Positions 6,688-58,576 of a stretch of 64,000 nucleotides of DNA are shown in pieces. A model generated the notes under the pieces. It ran no database searches. It was not told the DNA's origin and was given only the letters and a program-made list of their open reading frames with translations. The DNA comes from Pantoea phytobeneficialis. Its GTDB lineage: Bacteria > Pseudomonadota > Gammaproteobacteria > Enterobacterales > Enterobacteriaceae. Position 1 is the first letter of the stretch, and the number at the start of each line of letters is the position of its first letter. Location of the stretch: contig NZ_CP024636.1 of NCBI RefSeq assembly GCF_009728735.1, positions 4,030,483 through 4,094,482 on the forward strand. Reading direction: 5' to 3'. The translations under genes and the position numbers were made by a program.

Positions 6688-7446
6688 TTAGCAGAGTTCG
6701 AGTTGTACTTCGTGTTGCTCAATCACCTTCATCACGCTGGCAGGTGGCGTGAGGTCGGTATACAGATAGTCGATCAGGCTCATGTTGCCCAGGTTCACCA
6801 TCGCGTTGCGACCAAATTTTGAGTGATCCACCACCAGCATCACGCAACGCGAGTTTTCAATGATCGCGCGCTTGGTGCGAACTTCGTGGTAGTCGAACTC
6901 CAGCAACGAGCCATCCATGTCAATACCGCTGATACCAAGAATGCCGTAATCCAGGCGGAACTGGGAGATAAAGTCGAGGGTGGCTTCCCCCATAATGCCG
7001 CCATCGCGGGTACGCACTTCGCCACCGGCAATGATGACGCGGAAATCCGGTTTCGCCATCAGCAGCATCGCGACGTTGAGGTTGTTGGTGACGACACGCA
7101 GATTGCTATGATTGAGCAACGCATGCGCCACTGCTTCAGGCGTGGTGCCAATATCGATAAATAATGTCGCCCCATCGGGGATCTGGCTGGCAACGCGCTC
7201 GGCAATACGCGCTTTTTCAGCCGACCACATCATTTTTCGGTCCTGCCAGGCGGTATTTTCCGAGCTGGAGGGTAGCGCTGCACCGCCGTGATGACGCTGA
7301 ATTTTGTTTTGATCGGCCAGATCGTTCAAATCGCGCCTGATGGTCTGTGGGCTGACTTCAAAGTGATCCACCAGCTCTTCCGTGCTGACATATCCCTGAC
7401 GCCGGACCAGATCGATAATGGCGTCATGACGTTGCGTCTGCTTCAC
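6688..7446 (-). CDS. glpR: DeoR-family glycerol-3-phosphate regulon repressor GlpR
   Basis: GlpR represses genes for glycerol and glycerol-3-phosphate use and is released by glycerol 3-phosphate. The 252-residue protein has the DeoR-type N-terminal helix-turn-helix, with GYVSTEELVDHF followed by SPQTIRRDLNDL (about residues 18-41), and a C-terminal sugar-phosphate-sensing domain with the DIGTTPEAVAHAL segment. It is the last gene of a glpE-glpG-glpR set, 48 bases after glpG, as in E. coli. Two likely targets of this protein lie in the window just upstream of glpD. Confidence 0.97.
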   Translation of the reverse strand: MKQTQRHDAIIDLVRRQGYVSTEELVDHFEVSPQTIRRDLNDLADQNKIQRHHGGAALPSSSENTAWQDRKMMWSAEKARIAERVASQIPDGATLFIDIGTTPEAVAHALLNHSNLRVVTNNLNVAMLLMAKPDFRVIIAGGEVRTRDGGIMGEATLDFISQFRLDYGILGISGIDMDGSLLEFDYHEVRTKRAIIENSRCVMLVVDHSKFGRNAMVNLGNMSLIDYLYTDLTPPASVMKVIEQHEVQLELC

Positions 7447-7494
7447 ATCTCTCTCCTGTTCACGGCTTGATGCCGCGTTTTTCTTCTTCTGGTA

Positions 7495-8325
7495 TTAACG
7501 GCGCACCACTTTCTTACGCGTATCAACAAACGCCATCGCTAACCCAACCAGCAGGCCGGTAACGTGTGCCGCATTGGCAATCGACAGACCAAATGCGCCG
7601 TACCAGCCAATAATCAACCACACAATAGCGAACCCCATCAAACCGCGCTCGAGATAAATACCACTTTCGGGATCGCGCTCGCCTCGCAACCAGCAATAAC
7701 CCATCAACGCATACACCACGCCAGATAAACCGCCAAACAGCACGCCGCTAAATTTAGCCTGCATCCAGCCGGTAAGTAGCGCGGAAATGAGCATGATGAC
7801 AAATAACTTGCCGCTCCCGAGACGCTTTTCGACTGCCCCGCCGAGATACCACCACCACATCAGGTTGAACAAAATATGCAGCAGGGAAAAATGCAGCAGC
7901 GCATGACTGAACCAGCGCCACACCTGGAAATATTGCTGCGGCCCATCAGGCCAGCCCAACCAGCCAAGCAGGGTTTCATCACCGAAAATCTGCATCAGGA
8001 TAAACACCGCGACACAGGCCATCATCATGGTCATGGTGAGCGGGCCTGCGCGTTCGCGAATGTTCGCCCAAATATGGCTTCGCTCATAACGCAGCCCACT
8101 TTCCGTGCTGCCGGTATGCCAGCTGGCGGCCTGATAACGTGGATGGTTGGGATCACGCACGAACTGCGCGAGTTCGTTTTCGACCATATCCAGCTTGCTT
8201 TCGTCTTCCAACAGAATGACAAAATGGCTTTCACGTTCAATCGTTAACCTGACGCCACGCGTCGCCATATAGTCCACAAACGCCTGGGCCATGCGCGGAT
8301 TATTGAACTGGGTAATGCGCATCAT
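7495..8325 (-). CDS. glpG: Rhomboid intramembrane serine protease GlpG
   Basis: GlpG is an inner-membrane rhomboid protease that cleaves transmembrane substrates. The 276-residue protein matches the family length. An N-terminal cytosolic domain (about 1-90) is followed by six membrane segments. The catalytic serine lies in [13 protein letters not shown] and the partner histidine in [30 protein letters not shown] is the conserved loop/TM2 region. Two adjacent ATG codons (8325 and 8322) could serve as start; the first is given. It lies 30 bases after glpE. Confidence 0.96.
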
Positions 8326-8355
8326 GCGGTGCTCTCCGTACCTTTATCAAAAGGC

Positions 8356-8682
8356 TCACATCGTACCAGTTGTCACCTGAGCCGGAAACGCCGCACGCCA
8401 GGCGTCAAATCCCCCATCAATACTGTAGGCCGCACTAAACCCTTGTCCCAGCAGGAACTGCGCGGCACCTTTGCTGCTATTGCCGTGGTAGCACATCACC
8501 AGCACTGGCAGGTCATGATTGGCCTGGCTGATAAAATCGGCGAGGTTGTCATTCGACAGGTGTAGCGCACCTGCGGCATGGCCCAGAGAGAAGCTTTGCG
8601 GATCGCGGATGTCCACCAGCTGCGCACCTTGTGTCAGATGCTCCTGAGCCTGTAGGACGTTAATACATTCGAAGGTTTCCAT
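8356..8682 (-). CDS. glpE: Thiosulfate sulfurtransferase GlpE (rhodanese)
   Basis: GlpE is a small single-domain rhodanese that moves sulfane sulfur from thiosulfate to thiol acceptors in the cytoplasm. The 108-residue product has the active-site loop [12 protein letters not shown] with the catalytic Cys near residue 65, and the VDIRDPQSF motif. The start at 8682 was chosen because METFECINV aligns with the family N-terminus and GAGAGAAACC precedes it. The longer open frame upstream runs into the glpD control region. First gene of glpEGR, divergent from glpD. Confidence 0.95.
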
Positions 8683-8859
8683 GGTTTCTCTCATCACATC
8701 GTCACAATTAACGCCTAGTTTACCCTGAGTTGCGAGCGCCATAACCTGATAAAGCATGTGGCTTTGTGTTTTTTTTCCTGCCGGAATGTTAGCTGTATCA
8801 CGCAAAGATGTTTTTATTAGGTTAACCGCTGGCATCAATGTTGGTTTCCGATTATTATT

Positions 8860-8877
8860 ATGCTCGAAAACGAACAT
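8860..8877. promoter_or_regulatory. GlpR operator, upstream copy
   Basis: ATGCTCGAAAACGAACAT matches the GlpR consensus core ATGTTCGWTAWCGAACAT at 16 of 18 positions, with its 3' half exact. It sits 33 bases before the glpD start, between the divergent glpE and glpD. Confidence 0.8.
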
Positions 8878-11506: not shown

Positions 11507-12520
11507 TTATTTGTTGTAGAAAGTCGGACGCGGTGGCATTTCAACCGCTTCGATAGCCCCGCTGTTCTGCGCTTTCAGACAGGCATCCGCCGCCACTGAG
11601 GCCGCAAAACCATCCCAGGCAGAAGGCCCGGTCAGTTGGCCGGCTTTCACATCATTGATAAACGCCTGCAACTCCACGTCGTAAGCCTCGATAAAACGAT
11701 CTTTCCAGTCAGTCAGAATGGCGTTGCCAAGACGGGCGTTTTTACGCATCTGAATCGCTGAAGGTTCCGGCAGTTTCGCAATGCCCTCTTCCCCCACCAC
11801 CTCGCACTGGATGTCGTAGCCGTACGCACAGTTCACAAAGATTTCCACGTCGATGCGGATCCCTTTCTGCGTTTCAAACAACACGATTTGCGGATCTTTC
11901 AGCTTCGCATGCGTTTTCGAGGTCACGCGCGGGAACACCACCTGCACCGTTTTGTAGTCGTCTTCCGTCAACCAGCGCAGCACGTCCAGCTCATGAATCA
12001 GGGTATTGGTAATGGCCATGTCGGTGGTGTAGTTCTCGCCAACGCTCTGGTTGCGATGCGCGCAGTGCAGCATCAGTGGCTCGCCGATTTCACCGTCGGT
12101 GATGACCTTTTTCAGTGCGCGGTAACCAGCATCATAAGGGCGCATAAACCCGACCTGGACCAGGCGTTTGCCGTGTTTGATTTCTGCATCGACAATGCGG
12201 CGACAACCCTCGGCGCTCAGTGCCAGCGGCTTTTCACAAAACACCGGTTTGCCCGCAGCAATCGCCGCGAGGGTAAATTCTTCATGTGTCGGATCCCATG
12301 AAGTGACCAGCACCGCATCAACTTCTGGCGAGTTGATCACCTGATGACCATCCTGATAAACCTCGGCATCAATATTCAGACGTTGCAGCGCAGCACGCGC
12401 GCCTTCCACATTAATATCTGAAACCGCCACCACCTTCGCACCCTGTAGCACATTGTTGCAGCGGCGGATATGTTCCTGACCAATTGCACCGGTACCGATA
12501 ACACCGAGTTTGAGCGTCAT
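11507..12520 (-). CDS. iolG: Inositol 2-dehydrogenase IolG
   Basis: IolG oxidises myo-inositol to 2-keto-myo-inositol with NAD+, the entry step of the pathway. The 337-residue protein opens with a Rossmann fold ([15 protein letters not shown], about 6-20) and has the GFO/IDH/MocA motif FCEKPLALS near residue 95. The segment [13 protein letters not shown] carries the conserved catalytic His-Asp region. The start is preceded by GTGTAATT with no strong Shine-Dalgarno, so coupling to iolD, 59 bases upstream, may help expression. Confidence 0.95.
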
Positions 12521-12579
12521 AATTACACCTGTAGAGTCGGATAAGGGTAAATAAAGGCCGGAGAAGTCCGGCCTGAAGA

Positions 12580-14514
12580 TCAGTACTTACGCGCCTGTTC
12601 GATATGCGCGTTAAGGTTGTCAGCCACCTGTTGCGTACGCTCGGAAGTGGACGCTTGCGCGACCCCGACGTGCCACCAGCTGAAGTATTTGTGGACCATA
12701 GTTTTCGGCAGCACTTTAATATCGATAAGCGTTGAGACCGTCTGCTTCTGCGCATCGGCCAGTGCGGCCTTCAGCTGCTCCAGGCTGGTGACGCGATAGG
12801 TTTTGCAGCCGTAACCTGCGGCAATCGCCGCAAAATCCACCGGAACAAAGCCACCGTCCAGCTTGCCGCCTTCCGGGTTACGGAAGCGGAACTCGGTGGT
12901 GAAGCTGTCCATACCGTGTTCCATTTGCAGGTTGTTGATACACCCGTTGGTCATGTTATCCAGCAGGATGACGTTGATTTTCGCCCCTTCCTGAACTGAG
13001 GTGACCAGCTCGGAGTGCAGCATCATGAAAGATCCGTCACCGACCATGGCGTAGACTTCACGCTGCGGCTCAGCCAGCTTCACCCCCAGCGCGGCATTCA
13101 CCTCGTAGCCCATGCAGGAGTAGCCATACTCAACGTGGTACGAGTTGTAATCTTTGGTGCGCCACACGCGTTGCAGGTCGCCCGGCAGACTGCCCGCGGC
13201 CGCGACAATCACCGCATCCTTTGGGAGTTGCTCGTTTAAGGTGCCCAGCACGCTGCTCTGCGTCAGTACCGACTGCGTCAGGCGCTGGAATTCGGCAAAC
13301 AACGCTTCACGGTCGATATGGTCGGCGATTTCTGGGATGAAATCGTCGGTGTTATAGGTCGCGGCATACACGCGCTGCGTCTCTTTCAGCAGCTTACTTT
13401 GCGCCTGATCGATCTGGCCGCCCCAGTGACTTTCAAAGCCCTGCAAACCCTTATCCAGCGCGGTCAGCGCTTCGCGGGCATCGGCCAGCAGTTGCACTGC
13501 ATCCAGCTTGTAGCTGTCGAAGTTGTTGACGTTGATATTGAGATAGCTAACGTCCGGGTTCTGGAAAATCCATTTCGAAGCGGTGGTAAAATCGGTGTAG
13601 CGCGTCCCCACGCCAATCACTAAATCCGCCTCTTTCGCCAGCAGGTTAGCCGCCAGACAGCCGGTTTCACCGACGCCGCCGACATTTAGCGGATGGTCAG
13701 AGACAATGGTGCCTTTCCCCGCCTGCGTTTCGGCAAACGGAATGTTGAAACGCTCAGCAAACTGGCGCAGCGCTTCACCCGCTTCGGAATATTTCACGCC
13801 GCCACCGCATACAATCAGTGGCTTATGTTTACGCACAATCAGTGCCAGTGCCTCTTCCAACTGGGCCACGGTGGGTAGACGGCGATCCAGACGATGTACG
13901 CGCTTCTGGAAGAAATATTCCGGGAAATCCCAGGCTTCACCCTGCACATCCTGCGGCAGCGCAATGGTCACCGCACCGGTTTCCGCCGGATCGGTCAACA
14001 CGCGCAATGCGTTTATACAGGCGGTCATCAGCTGCTCCGGGCGGCTGACGCGGTCCCAGTATTTGCTGACGGCACGGAAAGCATCGTTGGTGCTGATGCT
14101 GAGATCGTGGCTTTGCTCGATTTGTTGCAACACCGGGTCCGGCTGGCGCGTGGCGAACACATCGCCCGGCAGCAGTAATAAAGGAATACGGTTGGCGGTT
14201 GCGGTCGCGGCGGCGGTGATCATGTTGGCTGCGCCCGGTCCGACCGACGAGGTACAGGCAATAATCTGGCGGCGCAGCGACTGCTTGGCAAAACCGATGG
14301 CGGCATGCGCCATACCTTGCTCGTTACGGCCCTGATGCACCACCAGATCGCCGCTGTCCTGTTCCAGCGCTTGCCCCAGCCCCAGCACGTTGCCGTGACC
14401 GAAAATAGCGAAAATGCCTTTCACAAACTTGGTTTCAACGCCATCAACGTTCAGATACTGGTTATCAAGAAATTTCACCAGCGCCTGTGCCGTGGTTAAT
14501 CTGATTGTGCCCAT
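12580..14514 (-). CDS. iolD: 3D-(3,5/4)-trihydroxycyclohexane-1,2-dione hydrolase IolD
   Basis: IolD is a thiamine-diphosphate enzyme that opens the cyclohexanedione ring to 5-deoxy-D-glucuronate. The 644-residue product agrees with the family (637 in B. subtilis). The ThDP-binding motif GDGSFMML running to NMTNGCINN is present near residues 500-540. The start at 14514 is chosen because [16 protein letters not shown] is the family N-terminus and AAAGGATGAGC precedes it. A longer open frame to 14637 would add a hydrophobic tail not found in the family. First gene of iolD-iolG-iolE, divergent from iolC. Confidence 0.95.
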
Positions 14515-51890: not shown

Positions 51891-53288
51891 ATGAACAACG
51901 ATACCGGTTTACGCAAAAATACGTTGGGCTTGTTTTCTCTGGTCTTTTTTGTGGTGGCGGCGGCGTCGCCGCTGACTGGCGTGGTCGGTGGCCTGCCGGT
52001 GGCGATTATTTCCGGCAATGGCGGTGGCATTCCGGTGTTTTACATCCTGTCGTGCGTCATTTTGATGCTGTTCGCGGTGGGCTTTATCGCCATGAGTCGC
52101 CACGTCAATAACGCCGGTGCCTTCTATACCTATATCTCCAAAGGTCTGGGAGAAAACTGGGGCGCATCGGCGTCGGTACTGGCGTTAATGGCCTACTTCT
52201 CCATCCAAATCGCGATTGTCGCCATGCTCGGCTTCTTTACCCAGCTGTTCCTTGAAGAACATCTCAGCACCCATATTCCCTGGTGGGCGCTGAGTATGTT
52301 GTTTGCGGTGATTGCCTGGGTTCTGGGCATCAAACGGGTTGAGGTGGGCGGTAAGTTACTGGGCGTGCTGATGCTGGCCGAGGTCGCGATCGTGCTGCTG
52401 ACCGATGTGATGCTGCTGGTGAAAAAAGCCGGTCCTTACACCTTCCAGTCGTTTGAGCCGTCCGTGTTTATGCAAGGCAACCTCGGTATCGCCTTTATCT
52501 TTACCATCGCCGCCTTTATCGGTTTTGAATCAACGGCGATCTATGCCGAAGAGTGCCGCGATCCACAGAAAACCGTGCCACGCGCCACCATTTGCGCCCT
52601 GCTGCTCATCACCGCCTTTTTCTGCTTTACCAGTTGGTCGCTGGTGCAGGCCTATGGCTTCGATGAAATTGTGGCCATCGCCAGCAAAGATCCCGGCAAT
52701 TTTGTCTTCAACATCACCCGTCAGTATGTCGGCCAGTGGGCGGTGGATACCATGTCGGTGTTGTTGATCACCAGCCTGTTCGCCGCCACCCTGGCGTTTC
52801 ACAACAATATCTCCCGCTATCTGTTTAGCATCAGCCGTGATGGTCTGATCTGGAAAGAGCTGTGCAAAACCCATCCCACCAACGGTACGCCACATAACGC
52901 CAGCCATCTGCATAGCGTGATTCTGTTGCTGTTACTGGCGGGGATGGGCAGCGCCGGGCTGGACCCGATGGTGCACATCTTTGCCATCGGTTCGGCGGTC
53001 GCTACCCTGTGTATCCTGATTCTGCAATTGGGCGTGTCAGCGGCGGTGGTGCTGTTTTTCCGTCGCGTCGTAACGGATGACAGCCGGTTTCAGGTGTTCT
53101 GGGCACCGCTGCTGTCGATTATTTGTATGACCCTCACCATCATTCTGGTGGTGAACAATCTGCAATCCCTGAGTGGCAGCGATTCCAGCGTGGTGAAGAT
53201 GATCCCGTGGTTTATCGCCGCCTGTGCGCTGGCGGGTTACGGCATGTCATTGAAGCGTGGAATGAAAGTGGCGGTGATAAAAAAATAA
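51891..53288 (+). CDS. APC-family amino acid/amine permease
   Basis: A 465-residue inner-membrane transporter of the amino acid-polyamine-organocation superfamily with about 12 membrane segments. Motifs include the TM1 region LVFFVVAAASPLTGVVGGLP, the AGAFYTYISKGLG segment and the TM6 FIGFESTAIYAEECRDPQKTVPRAT stretch. The start at 51891 was chosen for the upstream GAGGCG and because earlier residues are not family-like. It follows the AraC gene and probably imports the substrate of the OCD-Rid-oxidase genes. Specificity cannot be read from sequence. Confidence 0.88.
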   Translation: MNNDTGLRKNTLGLFSLVFFVVAAASPLTGVVGGLPVAIISGNGGGIPVFYILSCVILMLFAVGFIAMSRHVNNAGAFYTYISKGLGENWGASASVLALMAYFSIQIAIVAMLGFFTQLFLEEHLSTHIPWWALSMLFAVIAWVLGIKRVEVGGKLLGVLMLAEVAIVLLTDVMLLVKKAGPYTFQSFEPSVFMQGNLGIAFIFTIAAFIGFESTAIYAEECRDPQKTVPRATICALLLITAFFCFTSWSLVQAYGFDEIVAIASKDPGNFVFNITRQYVGQWAVDTMSVLLITSLFAATLAFHNNISRYLFSISRDGLIWKELCKTHPTNGTPHNASHLHSVILLLLLAGMGSAGLDPMVHIFAIGSAVATLCILILQLGVSAAVVLFFRRVVTDDSRFQVFWAPLLSIICMTLTIILVVNNLQSLSGSDSSVVKMIPWFIAACALAGYGMSLKRGMKVAVIKK

Positions 53289-53335: not shown

Positions 53336-53413
53336 GTAGCGGCGCGATTTATCGCGCTCTTTTCAGGCTGTGGCATGACCTGCAAAGACCCGCGCGATAA
53401 AACGCGCCGCTAC
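53336..53413. repeat. Inverted pair of the dispersed palindromic repeat
   Basis: A unit starting GTAGCGGCGCGAT (53336-53357) and a unit ending ACGCGCCGCTAC (53392-53413) are separated by 34 bases, the widest spacing in the window. They lie after the permease gene and mark the left edge of the AT-rich hcp region. Confidence 0.85.
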
Positions 53414-53785
53414 TCAATGCACCATCGTTTCCCGCCCCACGCTTCCCAACATTGGGCAACATCATTCAGTTTCAGAATCATCCTAATAAAATCGTTAACA
53501 CTGTTAATTTATTGACATGAAGCCGTGTTAAATTTTACTAATGTATTACGGTGCCATCGCGTATTTACGCGATGATAATCAGATCCAATCTCTACACAAA
53601 TAAGTGACATATCAGCTTTAGCAGGCCGCAATATCACCTCGGTTTATTCAGATAATCGGGTGAAAAGTGACATTGCGGTGACAGAATTATCTCCATATTA
53701 ACTGGCTTGACACCATTTTCACGTAACCGAGTGAGATGCGTATCTCATTTATCTTTCATGGAAAAAACAATCAGGAAATCAGGTA
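53414..53785 (+). promoter_or_regulatory. AT-rich leader of the hcp pair with candidate promoter and palindrome
   Basis: No gene is supported in these 372 bases. TTGACA (53512-53517) and TTTACT (53534-53539) are spaced by 16 bases and form a candidate sigma-70 promoter. A perfect 20-base palindrome, CATCGCGTA, TT, TACGCGATG, lies just downstream at 53555-53574 where a repressor could bind. A second inverted repeat, TGAGAT, GCGT, ATCTCA, lies at 53732-53747. No sigma-54 promoter, common in front of T6SS genes, was recognised. The leader would be about 240 bases long. Confidence 0.5.
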
Positions 53786-54268
53786 ATGGCTATTGATATT
53801 TATTTGAAAGTTGACGGAACAACCGGTGAGTCCCAGGACAGCAATCACAAAGGATGGACCGATGTACTCTCCTTTACATGGGGGGCTGCACAACCGGGAA
53901 ATATGTCAGTTGGCGGCGGCGGTGGTGCTGGCAAAGTGGCTTACCGTGATCTGAATATTAAGGCGTTGATTGATAAATCCACCCCGGCGATTTTGAAGTT
54001 CTGCTCCAGCGGTAAACATGTCGACAAAGTCGAGCTGTCAGTTTGTAAGGCCGGTGGCAACCAGGTTGAATATTCAAAGATCACTCTTGAAGACGTGCTG
54101 GTTACGCAAACCGACTTCAACGGCGTGGGTCAGAGCGACACCATCGTAGTGGATTACGCCTTCCAGGCGGCCAAAGTCTCCATGAGCTATTGGGAACAGG
54201 GCGAGAGTGGTACCAAAGGTGCCGAAAGCAAAGTGAGCTGGGACATTAAGCAAAACAAAGAAAGCTAA
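53786..54268 (+). CDS. hcp: Hcp family type VI secretion tube protein, copy 1
   Basis: A 160-residue Hcp1-type protein. Hexameric Hcp rings stack to form the inner tube of the type VI secretion system and carry small effectors in their lumen. The family pattern is complete: MAIDIYLKVDGTTGES, then WGAAQPGNMSVGGGGGAGKV, KALIDKSTPAILKFCSSGKHVDKVELSVCKAGG, and TLEDVLVTQTD. The ATG follows AGGAAATCAGGTA. It is followed 45 bases later by a second copy, about 70% identical by eye. No T6SS core genes (tssB, tssC, vgrG, clpV) are in the window, so the tube must be supplied to a machine elsewhere. Confidence 0.93.
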   Translation: MAIDIYLKVDGTTGESQDSNHKGWTDVLSFTWGAAQPGNMSVGGGGGAGKVAYRDLNIKALIDKSTPAILKFCSSGKHVDKVELSVCKAGGNQVEYSKITLEDVLVTQTDFNGVGQSDTIVVDYAFQAAKVSMSYWEQGESGTKGAESKVSWDIKQNKES

Positions 54269-54313
54269 ACACGCATGACACCCTGATATCACGACAAGGC
54301 GATGGTAAACACA

Positions 54314-54796
54314 ATGGCGATAGATATTTTTTTAAAAGTGGATGGCATCAATGGTGAATCGCAAAATGCGAATCACAAGAACTGGATCGATGTGTATTCA
54401 TTTAGCTGGGGTGCAAAGCAACCCGGTAATATGGCGGTGGGTGGTGGTGGTGGCGCAGGCAAAGTGAATTATCGTGACCTTACTGTGCAGGCGCTGGTTG
54501 ATAAAGGTACCCCGGCGTTACTGAAATATTGCTCCAGCGGCAAACATATTGCCAAAGTTCAACTGTCAGTCTGCAAAGCCGGCGGTCAGGAAGTCGAATA
54601 TACCCTTATTACGCTGGAAGATGTGTTGGTAACACAAACCGATTATATCGGCGTAGCACATGGATCAACCCTGGGTATGGAATACGCATTTCAGGCCAGT
54701 AAGGTGGCGATGGAATATTGGGAACAGACTTCGCAGGGGAATAAAGGCGCGTCAGTGCAGATGGGTTGGGATATCAAACAAAACAAAGAAGTCTAA
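54314..54796 (+). CDS. hcp: Hcp family type VI secretion tube protein, copy 2
   Basis: A second 160-residue Hcp1-type protein of identical length to copy 1. It differs at about 49 positions, and the lumen-loop region NMAVGGGGGAGKVNYRDL and the C-terminal WDIKQNKE are kept. Substitutions are clustered between residues 108 and 120 (GVGQSDTIVVD to GVAHGSTLGME) and at 138-152, so the copies may have different surface or cargo specificity. The ATG at 54314 is chosen to match copy 1; the ribosome-binding site is weak, so it may depend on upstream translation. It is followed after 17 bases by a gene of unknown function. Confidence 0.92.
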   Translation: MAIDIFLKVDGINGESQNANHKNWIDVYSFSWGAKQPGNMAVGGGGGAGKVNYRDLTVQALVDKGTPALLKYCSSGKHIAKVQLSVCKAGGQEVEYTLITLEDVLVTQTDYIGVAHGSTLGMEYAFQASKVAMEYWEQTSQGNKGASVQMGWDIKQNKEV

Positions 54797-54813
54797 CCAC
54801 GCTCGGGGGCGTT

Positions 54814-55644
54814 ATGGCATTTCCGAAATCACATGAAATATTAGCACTGACATCACAACCCGAATTAAATAATCGTGTGTCAGCAAACTATCTGACCACT
54901 GAAATTCTGGACGAAGCTTTGATTCTCGTCCGTTCGTTATCCACGGATGAAGTCTTCAGACTGGCTAAATCGGAAACCAGTCAGATTGCTTATACCCTGA
55001 AAGATTACAAAGACGAGAATAACCGCCGCCTGGCTTCCGGCGATGTCGAGTCAGGACAGTTACCACTGGGGAGGATTAACCATCTGGATAACCGGGTAGC
55101 CGGTGTGCGCGTCCAGCATGTGGATAATGCCGCCAAAAGTGCGTTGGGGGGAACCGCAATATTTCTCGGTGCCGGGCTATGGGCGGGATTAGGTTCCAGT
55201 GTGGGCAGCATCATTGGCAGGAATGCCGTACAGTTCGGCGTCACCGCCGCCTCCGCGTGGGGAACACGTTTTGTGACCCAGAAAGTCGTGGCGGTGAATC
55301 AGATGGCGTCACATATCAAAAATCTCGCCGATATGTTCAATACCACCCACAATGCATTTTCTGAATTCCGCAATGACGTCTATGTCAAACGCGTACAGTA
55401 CAAACCTGATGAAGACAGCCCTCCCCTGACTTTTGAACAAAATGTCACCGGTAAAAATGCACTTCCGGGCGATCAGGCCGCGGCAATTCAGCAGATACTG
55501 ACCCGATTTATCAGCTCAGCCTATCAGCGCGTTGATATTGTTGGCCGACCTGCCGAGTTTATGAAGGTCTATTTTGAAGGCGGGGCCCCGCTGGATATTT
55601 CACGTATTCAGTATGATTACCTGATCAATCTCAAGTTGCCGTAA
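54814..55644 (+). CDS. Unknown protein encoded with the hcp pair; Gly-rich hydrophobic centre
   Basis: A 276-residue protein that I do not recognise. Residues 1-105 are soluble and helix-prone. Residues 108-152 form a Gly/Ala-rich hydrophobic stretch (GGTAIFLGAGLWAGLGSSVG then VQFGVTAASAW) that could insert as a membrane hairpin. Residues 160-276 are again soluble. No signal peptide is seen. It starts 17 bases after hcp copy 2 (GGGGGCG upstream of the ATG), in the same direction, and ends just before the convergent yhiN. An Hcp-carried T6SS effector or an hcp-associated accessory protein are both possible; no immunity gene is visible beside it. Function is not known. Confidence 0.75.
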   Translation: MAFPKSHEILALTSQPELNNRVSANYLTTEILDEALILVRSLSTDEVFRLAKSETSQIAYTLKDYKDENNRRLASGDVESGQLPLGRINHLDNRVAGVRVQHVDNAAKSALGGTAIFLGAGLWAGLGSSVGSIIGRNAVQFGVTAASAWGTRFVTQKVVAVNQMASHIKNLADMFNTTHNAFSEFRNDVYVKRVQYKPDEDSPPLTFEQNVTGKNALPGDQAAAIQQILTRFISSAYQRVDIVGRPAEFMKVYFEGGAPLDISRIQYDYLINLKLP

Positions 55645-56835
55645 TCAGGATGACAACGCCTGCGCGCACGCCCAGGCGGAACTCCACGCCCACTGGAAGT
55701 TATAGCCACCCAGCCAGCCGGTCACATCCACCACTTCGCCGATAAAATATAATCCGGGCACATCGCGTGCTTCCAGGGTTTTTGACGATAACAGGGTGGT
55801 ATCCACGCCGCCCAGCGTCACTTCAGCTGTGCGGTAGCCTTCGGTGCCGTTTGGCTGTACCCGCCACTGATGCAGGGTTTGCACCAGTTCGCCCTGCTGC
55901 TTGCTGTTGAGCTGCTTCAGGGTGACGTCAGGGATCTGGTTCAGCGCCTGCAACACTTCCACCAGGCGCTTCGGCAAAATTTTCGCCAGGCTGTTTTTCA
56001 GGCTGAGATTCGGATGGGCGTCACGCTGGATATTAATAAACCCATCCAGCGGCGTTGCCGGGGATAAATCCACCGTCACGAACTCGCCGGGCTGCCAGTA
56101 ACTGGAGATTTGCAACACCGCCGGGCCAGATAAACCGCGATGGGTAAACAACAACGCCTCTTTAAATAAGGTGCCGTCCTGCGCAGTGATGGTGGTGGGT
56201 AACGCCACGCCGGATAAGGTGTTCAATTGTTCCAGCAGCGGTTTATGCAGAGTAAAAGGCACCAGCGCAGCGCGCGTCGGGAACACTTTCAAACCAAACT
56301 GCTCCGCCACTTTATAACCGAACGGTGAAGCTCCCAGCCCCGGCATCGATAAGCCACCGCTGGCGATCACCAACTTCTCCGCCTGCACCGTCATGCCGTT
56401 CAGTTGCAGGGTGTAGCCTGCGTCGTCACGCTGCACGCTCAGCACTTCGCTGCGCAACCGGAGCGTCACCTGTCCGGCTTCACACTCGGCCAGCAGCATA
56501 TCCACGATTTGCTGCGCCGAATCATCGCAGAACAACTGGCCCAGCGTTTTCTCGTGATATGCGATGCCGTGACGATTGACCAGATCGATAAAGTCCCACT
56601 GGGTATAGCGCGCCAGCGCAGATTTACAGAAATGCGGGTTGTGCGACAGGTAAGCTGCGGGTTCGGTATACATATTGGTGAAATTGCAGCGTCCGCCGCC
56701 CGACATCAGAATTTTGCGGCCCGCTTTTTTGCCGTTATCAAGCAGCAGCACACGCAGGCCACGCTGTCCGGCCTGTGCAGCACAGAACATGCCCGCAGCA
56801 CCCGCGCCAACAATGATAACGTCAAACTTTTCCAC
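55645..56835 (-). CDS. yhiN: HI0933/YhiN-family FAD-dependent oxidoreductase
   Basis: A 396-residue predicted flavoprotein of unknown reaction. The N-terminal FAD motif DVIIVGAGAAGMFCAAQAG (about 5-23) is followed by GRKILMSGGGRCNFTNM, the hallmark of the HI0933 family, and the C-terminus ends in the family pattern DVTGWLGGYNFQWAWSSAWACAQAL. The gene is divergent from pitA, as yhiN is in E. coli, which supports the orthology. It converges on the unknown gene next to the hcp pair; the two stop codons are adjacent. Confidence 0.93.
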   Translation of the reverse strand: MEKFDVIIVGAGAAGMFCAAQAGQRGLRVLLLDNGKKAGRKILMSGGGRCNFTNMYTEPAAYLSHNPHFCKSALARYTQWDFIDLVNRHGIAYHEKTLGQLFCDDSAQQIVDMLLAECEAGQVTLRLRSEVLSVQRDDAGYTLQLNGMTVQAEKLVIASGGLSMPGLGASPFGYKVAEQFGLKVFPTRAALVPFTLHKPLLEQLNTLSGVALPTTITAQDGTLFKEALLFTHRGLSGPAVLQISSYWQPGEFVTVDLSPATPLDGFINIQRDAHPNLSLKNSLAKILPKRLVEVLQALNQIPDVTLKQLNSKQQGELVQTLHQWRVQPNGTEGYRTAEVTLGGVDTTLLSSKTLEARDVPGLYFIGEVVDVTGWLGGYNFQWAWSSAWACAQALSS

Positions 56836-57076
56836 TGCTTTTTCTCACTTCACCCGAAAGGCGCTGATTGTAGTGATCTGTCCTCTTTGACGCCAGTGTC
56901 AAAAAAATGCCGTAAATATGTCATATTGTAAATGACTCATATTTCGGCATTTTTCCCTTGTTTAGGCGTGTGACTGGCAACATTAAGACAAAAAAAGACT
57001 ATATTTCCCTTTCCCATACAGCACGTTGTCGCGGATAATGCGCCGCGTTCATGTCCTCCAAAATGGCGTAACGTTT

Positions 57077-58576
57077 ATGCTACATCTGTTTGCTGGTCTT
57101 GACCTGAGTACCGGCCTGTTATTGGTTCTTGCCCTGCTGTTTGTATTGTTTTACGAAGCAATCAACGGTTTCCACGACACAGCCAACGCGGTCGCGACAG
57201 TTATCTACACCCGTGCGATGCGGGCGCAGCTGGCGGTTGTGATGGCAGGTGTTTTCAACTTTTTCGGTGTTTTGCTGGGCGGTTTGAGCGTGGCCTATGC
57301 CATTGTTCATATGCTCCCCACCGATCTGCTATTAAATGTTGGTTCAGCTCACGGCCTGGCTATGGTGTTCTCCATGCTGCTGGCTGCGATTATCTGGAAC
57401 CTCGGCACCTGGTATCTTGGCCTGCCGGCGTCCAGCTCCCATACCCTGATTGGTGCCATTATTGGTATCGGTCTGACCAATGCTCTGATGACCGGAACGT
57501 CGGTGGTTGATGCGCTCAACCTGCCAAAAGTTCTGAATATCTTCCTTTCCCTGATCCTGTCGCCGATTGTCGGTCTGGTGATTGCCGGTAGCCTGATTTT
57601 CCTGCTGCGCCGCTACTGGAGCAGCACCAAGAAACGCTCGCGTATTCATATGACGCCAGCCGATCGCGAGAAAATCGACGGCAAGAAAAAGCCGCCATTC
57701 TGGACGCGTATCGCCCTGATTGTTTCCGCCATTGGCGTAAGCTATTCACACGGTGCGAACGATGGTCAGAAAGGCATTGGCCTGATCATGCTGGTGCTGA
57801 TTGGTGTCGCACCTGCGGGTTTCGTGGTCAACATGAATGCCTCCGGTTATGACATCACCCGTACCCGTGATGCCGTCAACCATCTGGAGCAGTACTACCA
57901 GCAGCACAGCGAAACCCTGACGCACATCGTGCAGATGGTGCCGCCTGCGGTGCCTGCGCCAGAAGAGTCCATCAATGGCCCGCATGAATTCCACTGCGAT
58001 AGCGCCCGTGCGCTGCCAGCGATTCAGCGAGCTCAGGGCTTACTGAACAATCTGCAAAGCTACAGTGACCTGACACCTGACCAGCGCAGCCAGATGCGTC
58101 GTCTGCTGCTGTGCATCTCCGATACCGCCGATAAAGCGGCGAAGCTGCCGGAAACCAGCGCTGACGACCAGCGTTTCCTGAACAAGCTGAAAAGCGATCT
58201 GTTGGGAACCGTTGAGTATGCGCCGGTGTGGATCATCATGGCCGTAGCCCTGGCGCTTGGCGTCGGCACCATGATTGGCTGGCGTCGTGTGGCGACCACT
58301 ATCGGTGAGAAGATTGGTAAGAAAGGCATGACCTACGCGCAGGGTATGTCAGCGCAGGTGACGGCAGCGGTGTCGATTGGCATTGCCAGCTACACCGGGA
58401 TGCCGGTTTCCACCACGCACATTCTGTCGTCGTCAGTCGCCGGGACCATGTTGGTTGATGGTGGCGGTCTGCAAAGCCGTACCATCAAGAATATCGCGAT
58501 GGCGTGGGTGTTTACCCTGCCGGTGTGTATTCTGTTGTCCGGTTCCTTGTACTGGATTGCGCTGAAGCTGGTGTAA
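57077..58576 (+). CDS. pitA: Low-affinity inorganic phosphate transporter PitA
   Basis: PitA is a proton symporter for metal-phosphate complexes and a main route of phosphate, zinc and magnesium-phosphate uptake. The 499-residue protein has the E. coli length. Paired signature repeats are [18 protein letters not shown] (about 28-45) and [13 protein letters not shown], and [12 protein letters not shown] and [13 protein letters not shown] also match. The start at 57077 aligns with the E. coli N-terminus [10 protein letters not shown]; an upstream in-frame ATG at 57026 is possible but not family-like. Followed by a strong terminator. Confidence 0.96.

Follow-up and report, generated by a model that had tools for sequence, protein, structure and literature searches.

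What does a gene of no known family do when it lies directly behind two genes for Hcp, the tube protein of the type VI secretion system (T6SS), and why should such a trio lie apart from the secretion loci of its own genome? The question is raised by three genes, here called hcpA, hcpB, and X, in a stretch of 64,000 nucleotides from Pantoea phytobeneficialis (NCBI RefSeq assembly GCF_009728735.1, contig NZ_CP024636.1, forward-strand positions 4,030,483 to 4,094,482; hereafter the window). The comparisons described below incline us, with moderate confidence, to regard this cassette as a mobile auxiliary module of the T6SS in which X is an Hcp-loaded, probably membrane-active cargo that does not form a classical effector-immunity pair.

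Recurrence of the cassette

The three open reading frames (ORFs) lie head to tail on the same strand, with gaps of 45 bases between hcpA and hcpB and 17 bases between hcpB and X (Table 1); an in-frame ATG at 54302 offers an alternative start for hcpB, giving a product of 164 residues. The original prediction, made by a model from the letters of the sequence, had described this layout as tandem hcp genes encoding two proteins of 160 residues and about 70% identity, followed 17 bases later by a 276-residue ORF, and all of this was confirmed (111/159 residues, 70%, are identical between HcpA and HcpB). The accompanying statement that no other T6SS gene lies in the window holds for Hcp and for the sheath protein TssC, the two components that our check covered, whose other genomic matches fall outside the window.

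X was found in 6 of 61 Pantoea genomes, 5 of 30 Serratia genomes, and 4 of 392 genomes in a family-wide sample, all four of which recurred in the genus searches, and a profile of X found it in 2 of 394 genomes in an order-wide sample, both already counted. Among 72,556 plasmid records there was one match. The protein is 100% identical in Pantoea sp. AS-PWVM4. With the window included, there are 12 distinct X loci (L006, L007, and L008 repeat three of them), distributed over Pantoea, Serratia, and one Serratia plasmid, and hcpA-hcpB directly precedes X in all 12; how often X follows hcp had been proposed as a check, and X was never found away from hcp. Because the same three genes recur in the same order in other genomes with other neighbors, the cassette is not a product of chance. 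Both hcp genes are whole in 11 of the 12 loci. In the twelfth (L022 in genome G440, 12476-13835), the hcp pair is split by intervening sequences, and similar ones end X at residue 264; we tentatively read these interruptions as insertion-sequence (IS) remnants or assembly joins. Genome G440 also has no match to TssC, a combination that may reflect decay of the cassette after loss of the T6SS.

The two Hcp proteins

By family cut-offs, HcpA and HcpB are Hcp/TssD tube proteins, scoring 119.1 and 122.2 bits against Pfam PF05638 (cut-off, 23.5) and 66 and 62.1 bits against NCBIfam TIGR03344 (cut-off, 58.9), and they are similar in sequence to solved Hcp structures, e.g., 1y12. Of the four hcp genes in the window genome, two are those of the cassette, and the other two belong to separate T6SS regions with TssC matches at C1:3.461 Mb and 3.795 Mb, respectively. 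HcpA and HcpB share 66 to 67% identity with the Hcp of the first of these regions. A tree of 34 Hcps contained 27 cassette Hcps and five T6SS-locus Hcps (all five being Pantoea proteins of the first T6SS type, which leaves Serratia T6SS-locus and second-type Hcps outside the tree), and 26 of the 27 cassette Hcps grouped apart from the five (support, 99/93). HcpB formed a single clade (100/99), as did HcpA (100/98) save for the exception, the protein in the hcpA slot of the plasmid locus L019, which grouped with the T6SS-locus Hcps at moderate support (93/70). Residues I12, N18, L69, Q83, E93, S118, E134, S147, V148, and M150 are present in 7/7 HcpB proteins and in none of the others among 27 aligned Hcps. 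When the 61 Pantoea genomes were searched with HcpB, orthologues of at least 80% identity occurred in exactly the six genomes that carry X, the next best match being 70% identical; in G440 the orthologue is present only as a fragment. Apparently, then, HcpA can be replaced while HcpB and X remain together, as on the plasmid, and this suggests that the dedicated partner of X is HcpB.

Mobility and selection

The neighbors of the unit differ among the window, the Serratia loci, and the plasmid. Between L007 and L019, DNA identity is confined to the interval from hcpA through the end of X and is at background beyond it, and between L007 and L008 it also spans approximately 200 to 300 bp upstream before falling to background. 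L019 occupies positions 6937-8861 of NZ_CP033895.1, a conjugative plasmid of a Serratia liquefaciens from a flower, and IS6 and IS1 genes lie within about 5 kb on both sides of the cassette there. The G+C content of hcpA, hcpB, and X is 0.47 to 0.50, compared with 0.559 for the window. Given its changing neighbors, hcpA-hcpB-X is best read as a mobile unit.

Behind the Hcps, X is the variable member. In comparisons of the window with L007, L008, L020, and L021, X is 36 to 64% identical and the Hcps are 81 to 88% identical; with the plasmid, the figures are 53% for X and 69 and 82% for the Hcps, and with the near-identical L023 they are 97% and 98 to 99%. An abrupt step was seen between L020 and L021, in which HcpA is 93% identical, HcpB 95%, and X 45%. 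DNA identity between these two loci is about 85% before the hcpB-X border, drops there to about 58%, and declines further beyond it. Between close relatives, X is nevertheless conserved: in five close pairs, hcpA, hcpB, and X all have ratios of nonsynonymous to synonymous substitution rates (dN/dS) far below 1, the values for X being 0.04 to 0.13 (0.00 to 0.06 in the center of the protein). X is thus under purifying selection between close relatives, which implies that it is maintained as a protein.

X and its distant relative Y

X had no match in Pfam, NCBIfam, or PADLOC at an E value of ≤1 or in PHROGs at ≤0.1, and sequence searches of the PDB gave nothing meaningful for X (best E value, 0.76) or for its profile (best E value, 0.16). 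The Pfam families without a match to X at E ≤1 include those of known T6SS adaptors (Eag/DUF1795, Tap/DUF4123, and DUF2169). No relatives were found in viral contigs scanned with X, A1, and A3, nor in phage records, and a phage origin is therefore unsupported by the collections searched.

Five further Pantoea genomes carry orphan Hcps that are 72 to 76% identical to HcpA and are followed by a different protein of 303 to 322 residues, here called Y. A profile of these five proteins, used in a search made without hcp, found 15 relatives in the 392 family genomes (8 of 154 genera), and in 15/15 loci Y lies directly behind an orphan hcp, with just one hcp within a flank of about 1.5 kb. Plasmid records gave 32 matches to Y, 31 of them from Cronobacter, and hcp directly precedes Y in both plasmids inspected. 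One Cronobacter plasmid (L060, 6455-13995) also carries tssB-tssC-tssK, at a distance of about 4 kb from hcp-Y.

Profile comparison of 13 X rows with 20 Y rows gave a probability of 77%, a pairwise E value of 2e-5, and a score of 43.5, against maxima of 26.5 in 60 column shuffles and 27.8 in 60 block shuffles and scores of 24.7 and 23.8 in reversed controls. With the roles exchanged, the probability was 57% and the score 39.0. The alignment is co-linear, covering columns 20-273 of 277 in X and 11-306 of 311 in Y after realignment (106-273 before it). On the strength of these profiles, X and Y are distant homologues.

In X, the N- and C-terminal parts are conserved and enclose a near-uncharged center rich in Gly, Ala, and Ser, the GxxxG steps of which are GLWAG and GSIIG. 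In 30 of 33 X and Y rows, the longest stretch with at most one Asp, Glu, Lys, or Arg exceeds what shuffling of that protein produces (P < 0.05). The 30 comprise 12 of the 13 X rows, a set in which two rows repeat a locus, and 18 of the 20 Y rows; P is 0.018 for X of the window. An arginine in the center is invariant, as R136 in 10/10 X rows and R158 in 20/20 Y rows, and the two align.

The two-transmembrane effector domain SLATT (NCBIfam NF033635; Pfam PF18142) was the commonest weak match of Y, in 7 of 20 members in NCBIfam (best E value, 1.4e-4) and 6 of 20 in Pfam (best E value, 0.002), and these matches cover the hydrophobic center and the following helix. Membership was rejected. One Y member scored 21.7 bits in NCBIfam (cut-off, 35) and 14.5 bits in Pfam (cut-off, 26.5), so that the resemblance is weak and below both cut-offs; other weak Pfam matches of Y were equally good (Carn_acyltransf, 1.1e-4, two members; DUF7269, 0.0015, four members), and none of 10 X rows matched SLATT in Pfam. 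A separate orphan hcp lineage, in L043 and L044, is accompanied by a divergent gene and two small ORFs, possibly another cargo with immunity; the divergent gene of L044 encodes DUF4225 (Pfam E value, 5.7e-49), and that of L043 is similar by eye.

Co-occurrence with the T6SS

With TssC as the marker of T6SS presence, a match was found in 29 of 31 genomes carrying X or Y, compared with 231 of 392 in the family sample. Within that sample, TssC was present in 18 of 19 carriers and in 213 of 373 noncarriers (Fisher's P = 0.0006, uncorrected for relatedness). Ten of 11 genomes with X have TssC, the exception being G440 with its interrupted cassette; the host chromosome of the plasmid stands outside this count. 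One T6SS locus (L042, 3001-7024) has two Hcp genes of its own, 3.5 kb apart and with nearly identical upstream DNA, separated by a putative lysozyme-like ORF.

Search for an immunity gene

Same-strand ORFs of at least 35 residues that start no more than 400 bp after X or Y numbered 90 at 30 loci. None of the 90 is common to different locus families at an E value of ≤1e-4, a test that a highly variable gene would escape. Similarities were confined to close relatives, and two of them occur at differing distances: one between ORFs of 36 and 44 residues in L051 and their matches in L055, and one between ORFs of L020 and L021 that we take to be symE-like by analogy with a P. ananatis locus considered below. 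In the two Pantoea genomes concerned (L011, 974-1195; L021), the spacing between X and the symE-like ORF behind it is not the same. In the window, X abuts a convergent gene, and the sole downstream ORFs are therefore antisense to that gene. The adjacent downstream immunity gene that marks a classical antibacterial effector-immunity pair is thus not recognizable; this weighs against X as a classical antibacterial toxin and is compatible with a nonbacterial target or an adaptor role.

Comparison with known systems

An orphan hcp pair as such is already known from P. ananatis, in which adjacent hcp-1 and hcp-2 genes near hypothetical genes and symE were described in 2014 (PMC3942780). L020 and L021 resemble that locus, with the symE-like ORF downstream and the T6SS-locus hcp 93 and 86 kb off. 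The passages on the P. ananatis pair name just "hypothetical proteins" and do not mention X, its linkage to hcp, Y, the HcpB lineage, or mobility, and in their coarser tree hcp-1 and hcp-2 cluster with the T6SS-1 hcp, unlike in the tree presented here (PMC3942780). In Pantoea and Erwinia, variable putative effectors beside hcp in hcp/vgrG islands have been proposed to be carried by Hcp; these islands lie within core T6SS loci, whereas the X cassette is separate and has its own Hcp lineage (PMC3235180).

Several characterized effectors offer partial parallels. The Ssp6 family consists of small, ion-selective, pore-forming, Hcp-dependent effectors that act on membranes and are horizontally acquired, sometimes beside an orphan hcp, as in Klebsiella; by description they resemble X, but they have a small predicted immunity ORF immediately downstream, and X and Y have no recognizably shared one (PMC6889166). 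The putative cysteine proteases Tce1 and Tce2 of Pseudomonas aeruginosa have Hcp3 as their partner, and an effector of about 39 kDa has been modeled within the lumen of two stacked Hcp rings (PMC13323088). Only one Hcp type is involved there, but Tce1 in Hcp3 rings is a precedent in size for the 276-residue X, since it shows that the tube can hold and carry proteins larger than X; Hcp heterohexamers are the subject of a 2026 paper cited in the same source (PMC13323088). The T6SS effector Tde1 permeabilizes membranes via GxxxG (PMC10240207). Among the antifungal T6SS effectors of Serratia marcescens, Tfe2 lacks an immunity protein, the one proposed for Tfe1 is dispensable, and Tfe1 depolarizes membranes; these proteins of 183 (Tfe1) and 226 (Tfe2) residues are encoded in regions unrelated to the T6SS and can be likened to X by description (PMC6617251). 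A Serratia survey sought cargo effectors downstream of vgrG (PMC12165300), and a Klebsiella survey analyzed up to three genes downstream of vgrG (PMC12469244). Among the listings and excerpts of open-licence PubMed Central (PMC) papers covered here, we came across no account of X or Y, and none of the titles inspected relates SLATT to type VI secretion.

Function of X

The obligate linkage of X to a separate Hcp lineage, its divergence behind constant Hcps, an uncharged core for which shielding would be of advantage, the mobility of the unit, and its co-occurrence with the T6SS together favor an Hcp-loaded cargo. HcpA and HcpB would be tube subunits of a lineage separate from the Hcp of the machine itself, and X would be loaded into rings of these cassette Hcps, with HcpB as the constant partner and the hydrophobic hairpin shielded in the lumen. 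The loaded tube would be fired by a T6SS encoded elsewhere, of which the host genome has two regions, and after delivery the Gly/Ala/Ser-rich hairpin with its arginine may insert in, or act at, a membrane. Because no recognizable immunity gene is kept with X, the target is probably not a sister cell and might be, for example, a eukaryotic microbe; alternatively, self-protection may come from elsewhere.

Several of our findings weigh against this reading. Past the hcpB-X border, L020 and L021 stay divergent over at least 3.4 kb; this is therefore not an exchange of X alone, though it is consistent with replacement of X plus downstream DNA. Among the T6SS associations, no TssC match exists in G210, which carries Y, and the match of G447 is in two pieces. 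A first comparison of X with Y, made with five Y rows only, found nothing. Three of the 33 rows tested have no unusual uncharged stretch: in X of the plasmid the longest one lies elsewhere (residues 147-178), and Y of L035 and Y of L039 have extra charges between the two hydrophobic segments. Hydrophobicity is moderate, the best 19-residue mean being 1.59 in X and 1.25 to 1.92 in its relatives, and true membrane helices are accordingly uncertain; for that reason we infer the membrane hairpin rather than observe it. An AlphaFold2 model of X from three sequences reached a predicted local distance difference test (pLDDT) score of 32.8 and was useless. The missing common downstream ORF also belongs here, since a recognizable immunity gene is expected of an antibacterial effector. 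In this respect the cargo-or-adaptor role envisaged in the original prediction stands only in part. The fixed Hcp partner it proposed is supported, as is a cassette Hcp lineage distinct from the five T6SS-locus Hcps compared, and the housekeeping family match that it had named as counting against such a role was not found in Pfam, NCBIfam, or PADLOC.

Of the two roles, cargo is favored over adaptor because it is X, not Hcp, that varies most between loci and because a hydrophobic, Gly-rich core is present in the majority of X proteins. If X were instead an adaptor or loading chaperone that aids the cassette Hcp rings or recruits effectors encoded elsewhere, and not the payload itself, the lack of a recognizable immunity gene would be expected of a nontoxin, and the fixed Hcp partner and the strong purifying selection between close relatives would also fit. 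Such a role is unlikely, however, for a protein that diverges so much further than the Hcps it would serve in the four comparisons of the window given above, that mostly retains an uncharged Gly-rich core, and that matches no Pfam or NCBIfam family, those of adaptors included.

The lack of a common downstream gene bears on another possibility, that X is an ordinary antibacterial effector with an immunity gene that is located elsewhere or escapes recognition through its small size or its variability. Ssp6-like pore formers may likewise adjoin an orphan hcp, and the 204-bp Ssp6 immunity ORF had itself escaped annotation (PMC6889166); a small downstream ORF is present in many of our loci, and a fast-changing immunity gene would evade a similarity test. 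Yet X of the window abuts its convergent neighbor, with antisense ORFs alone behind it, and the 90 ORFs scanned include none common to different locus families, which leads us to consider an ordinary antibacterial effector rather improbable. Finally, the cassette could be a decaying duplication, with redundant hcp copies and a passenger gene of no present function, as the interrupted set of G440, with its truncated X and no TssC match, might suggest. We consider this very unlikely indeed, as no X copy has internal stops, all three genes have a low dN/dS (far below 1) in the five close pairs, and the set recurs in two genera and on a plasmid.

Surroundings of the cassette

The nearest upstream neighbor ends at 53288 and is presumably transporter-like, and the convergent gene that starts at 55645, immediately after X, is putatively yhiN-like. 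The putative AT-rich block upstream of hcpA (Table 1) has counterparts with 15 to 20 matches to a 20-base reference from L022 in 6 of 11 X loci, L022 included. Four Serratia X loci gave 11 to 12 matches, the same as T6SS-locus controls, though alignment still places a similar block there; of the 11 X loci compared, the plasmid locus L019 lacks it, and one Y locus also scored 15 matches. A palindrome like the repetitive extragenic palindromic (REP) elements, GTAGCGGCGCGATTTATCGCGC, occurs at 16 places in the window between 4066 and 53413 (≤3 mismatches; 0 expected), often as inverted pairs. An ORF that presumably resembles Pit-type phosphate transporters lies within a few kilobases of the cassette both in the window (57026-58576) and in Serratia L008 (893-2503), on opposite sides and possibly by coincidence.

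Table 1. Coordinates of the cassette and associated features in the window
Feature	Position	Strand	Description
hcpA	53786-54268	+	TssD/Hcp, 160 residues; member of the cassette Hcp group
hcpB	54314-54796	+	TssD/Hcp, 160 residues; lineage seen only with X among 61 genus genomes
X	54814-55644	+	276 residues, without known family; proposed Hcp-loaded cargo
X residues 109-151	55138-55266	+	43 residues, of which R136 alone is charged and 53% are Gly, Ala, or Ser; contains GxxxG steps; candidate membrane hairpin
AT-rich promoter-like/operator-like block	53499-53545	+	TTGACATG...GTGTTAA; putative, from sequence
Inverted pair of REP-like elements	53336-53413	.	Upstream of the cassette, outside it; 2 of 16 window matches

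Conclusions

A bolder extension of the favored cargo reading, which we offer only tentatively as a doubtful but coherent possibility, is that HcpB is an obligate, co-inherited second tube subunit for one immunity-free, membrane-inserting cargo, and that mixed or alternating rings of HcpA and HcpB shield the hairpin of X. X and Y would then be widespread T6SS cargoes for nonsister targets, such as fungi or protists, and the unit would move between T6SS-bearing hosts with a payload exchangeable behind a constant Hcp pair. The cassette touches two open questions of T6SS biology, namely how cargoes are matched to particular Hcps and by what means the tube conveys hydrophobic effectors. The one-to-one association of HcpB with X, the apparent replacement of HcpA on the plasmid, and the break between the Hcp pair and X make it a compact system for Hcp-cargo specificity. 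If X and Y do act without immunity genes, they would represent a class that effector searches keyed to immunity genes would miss.

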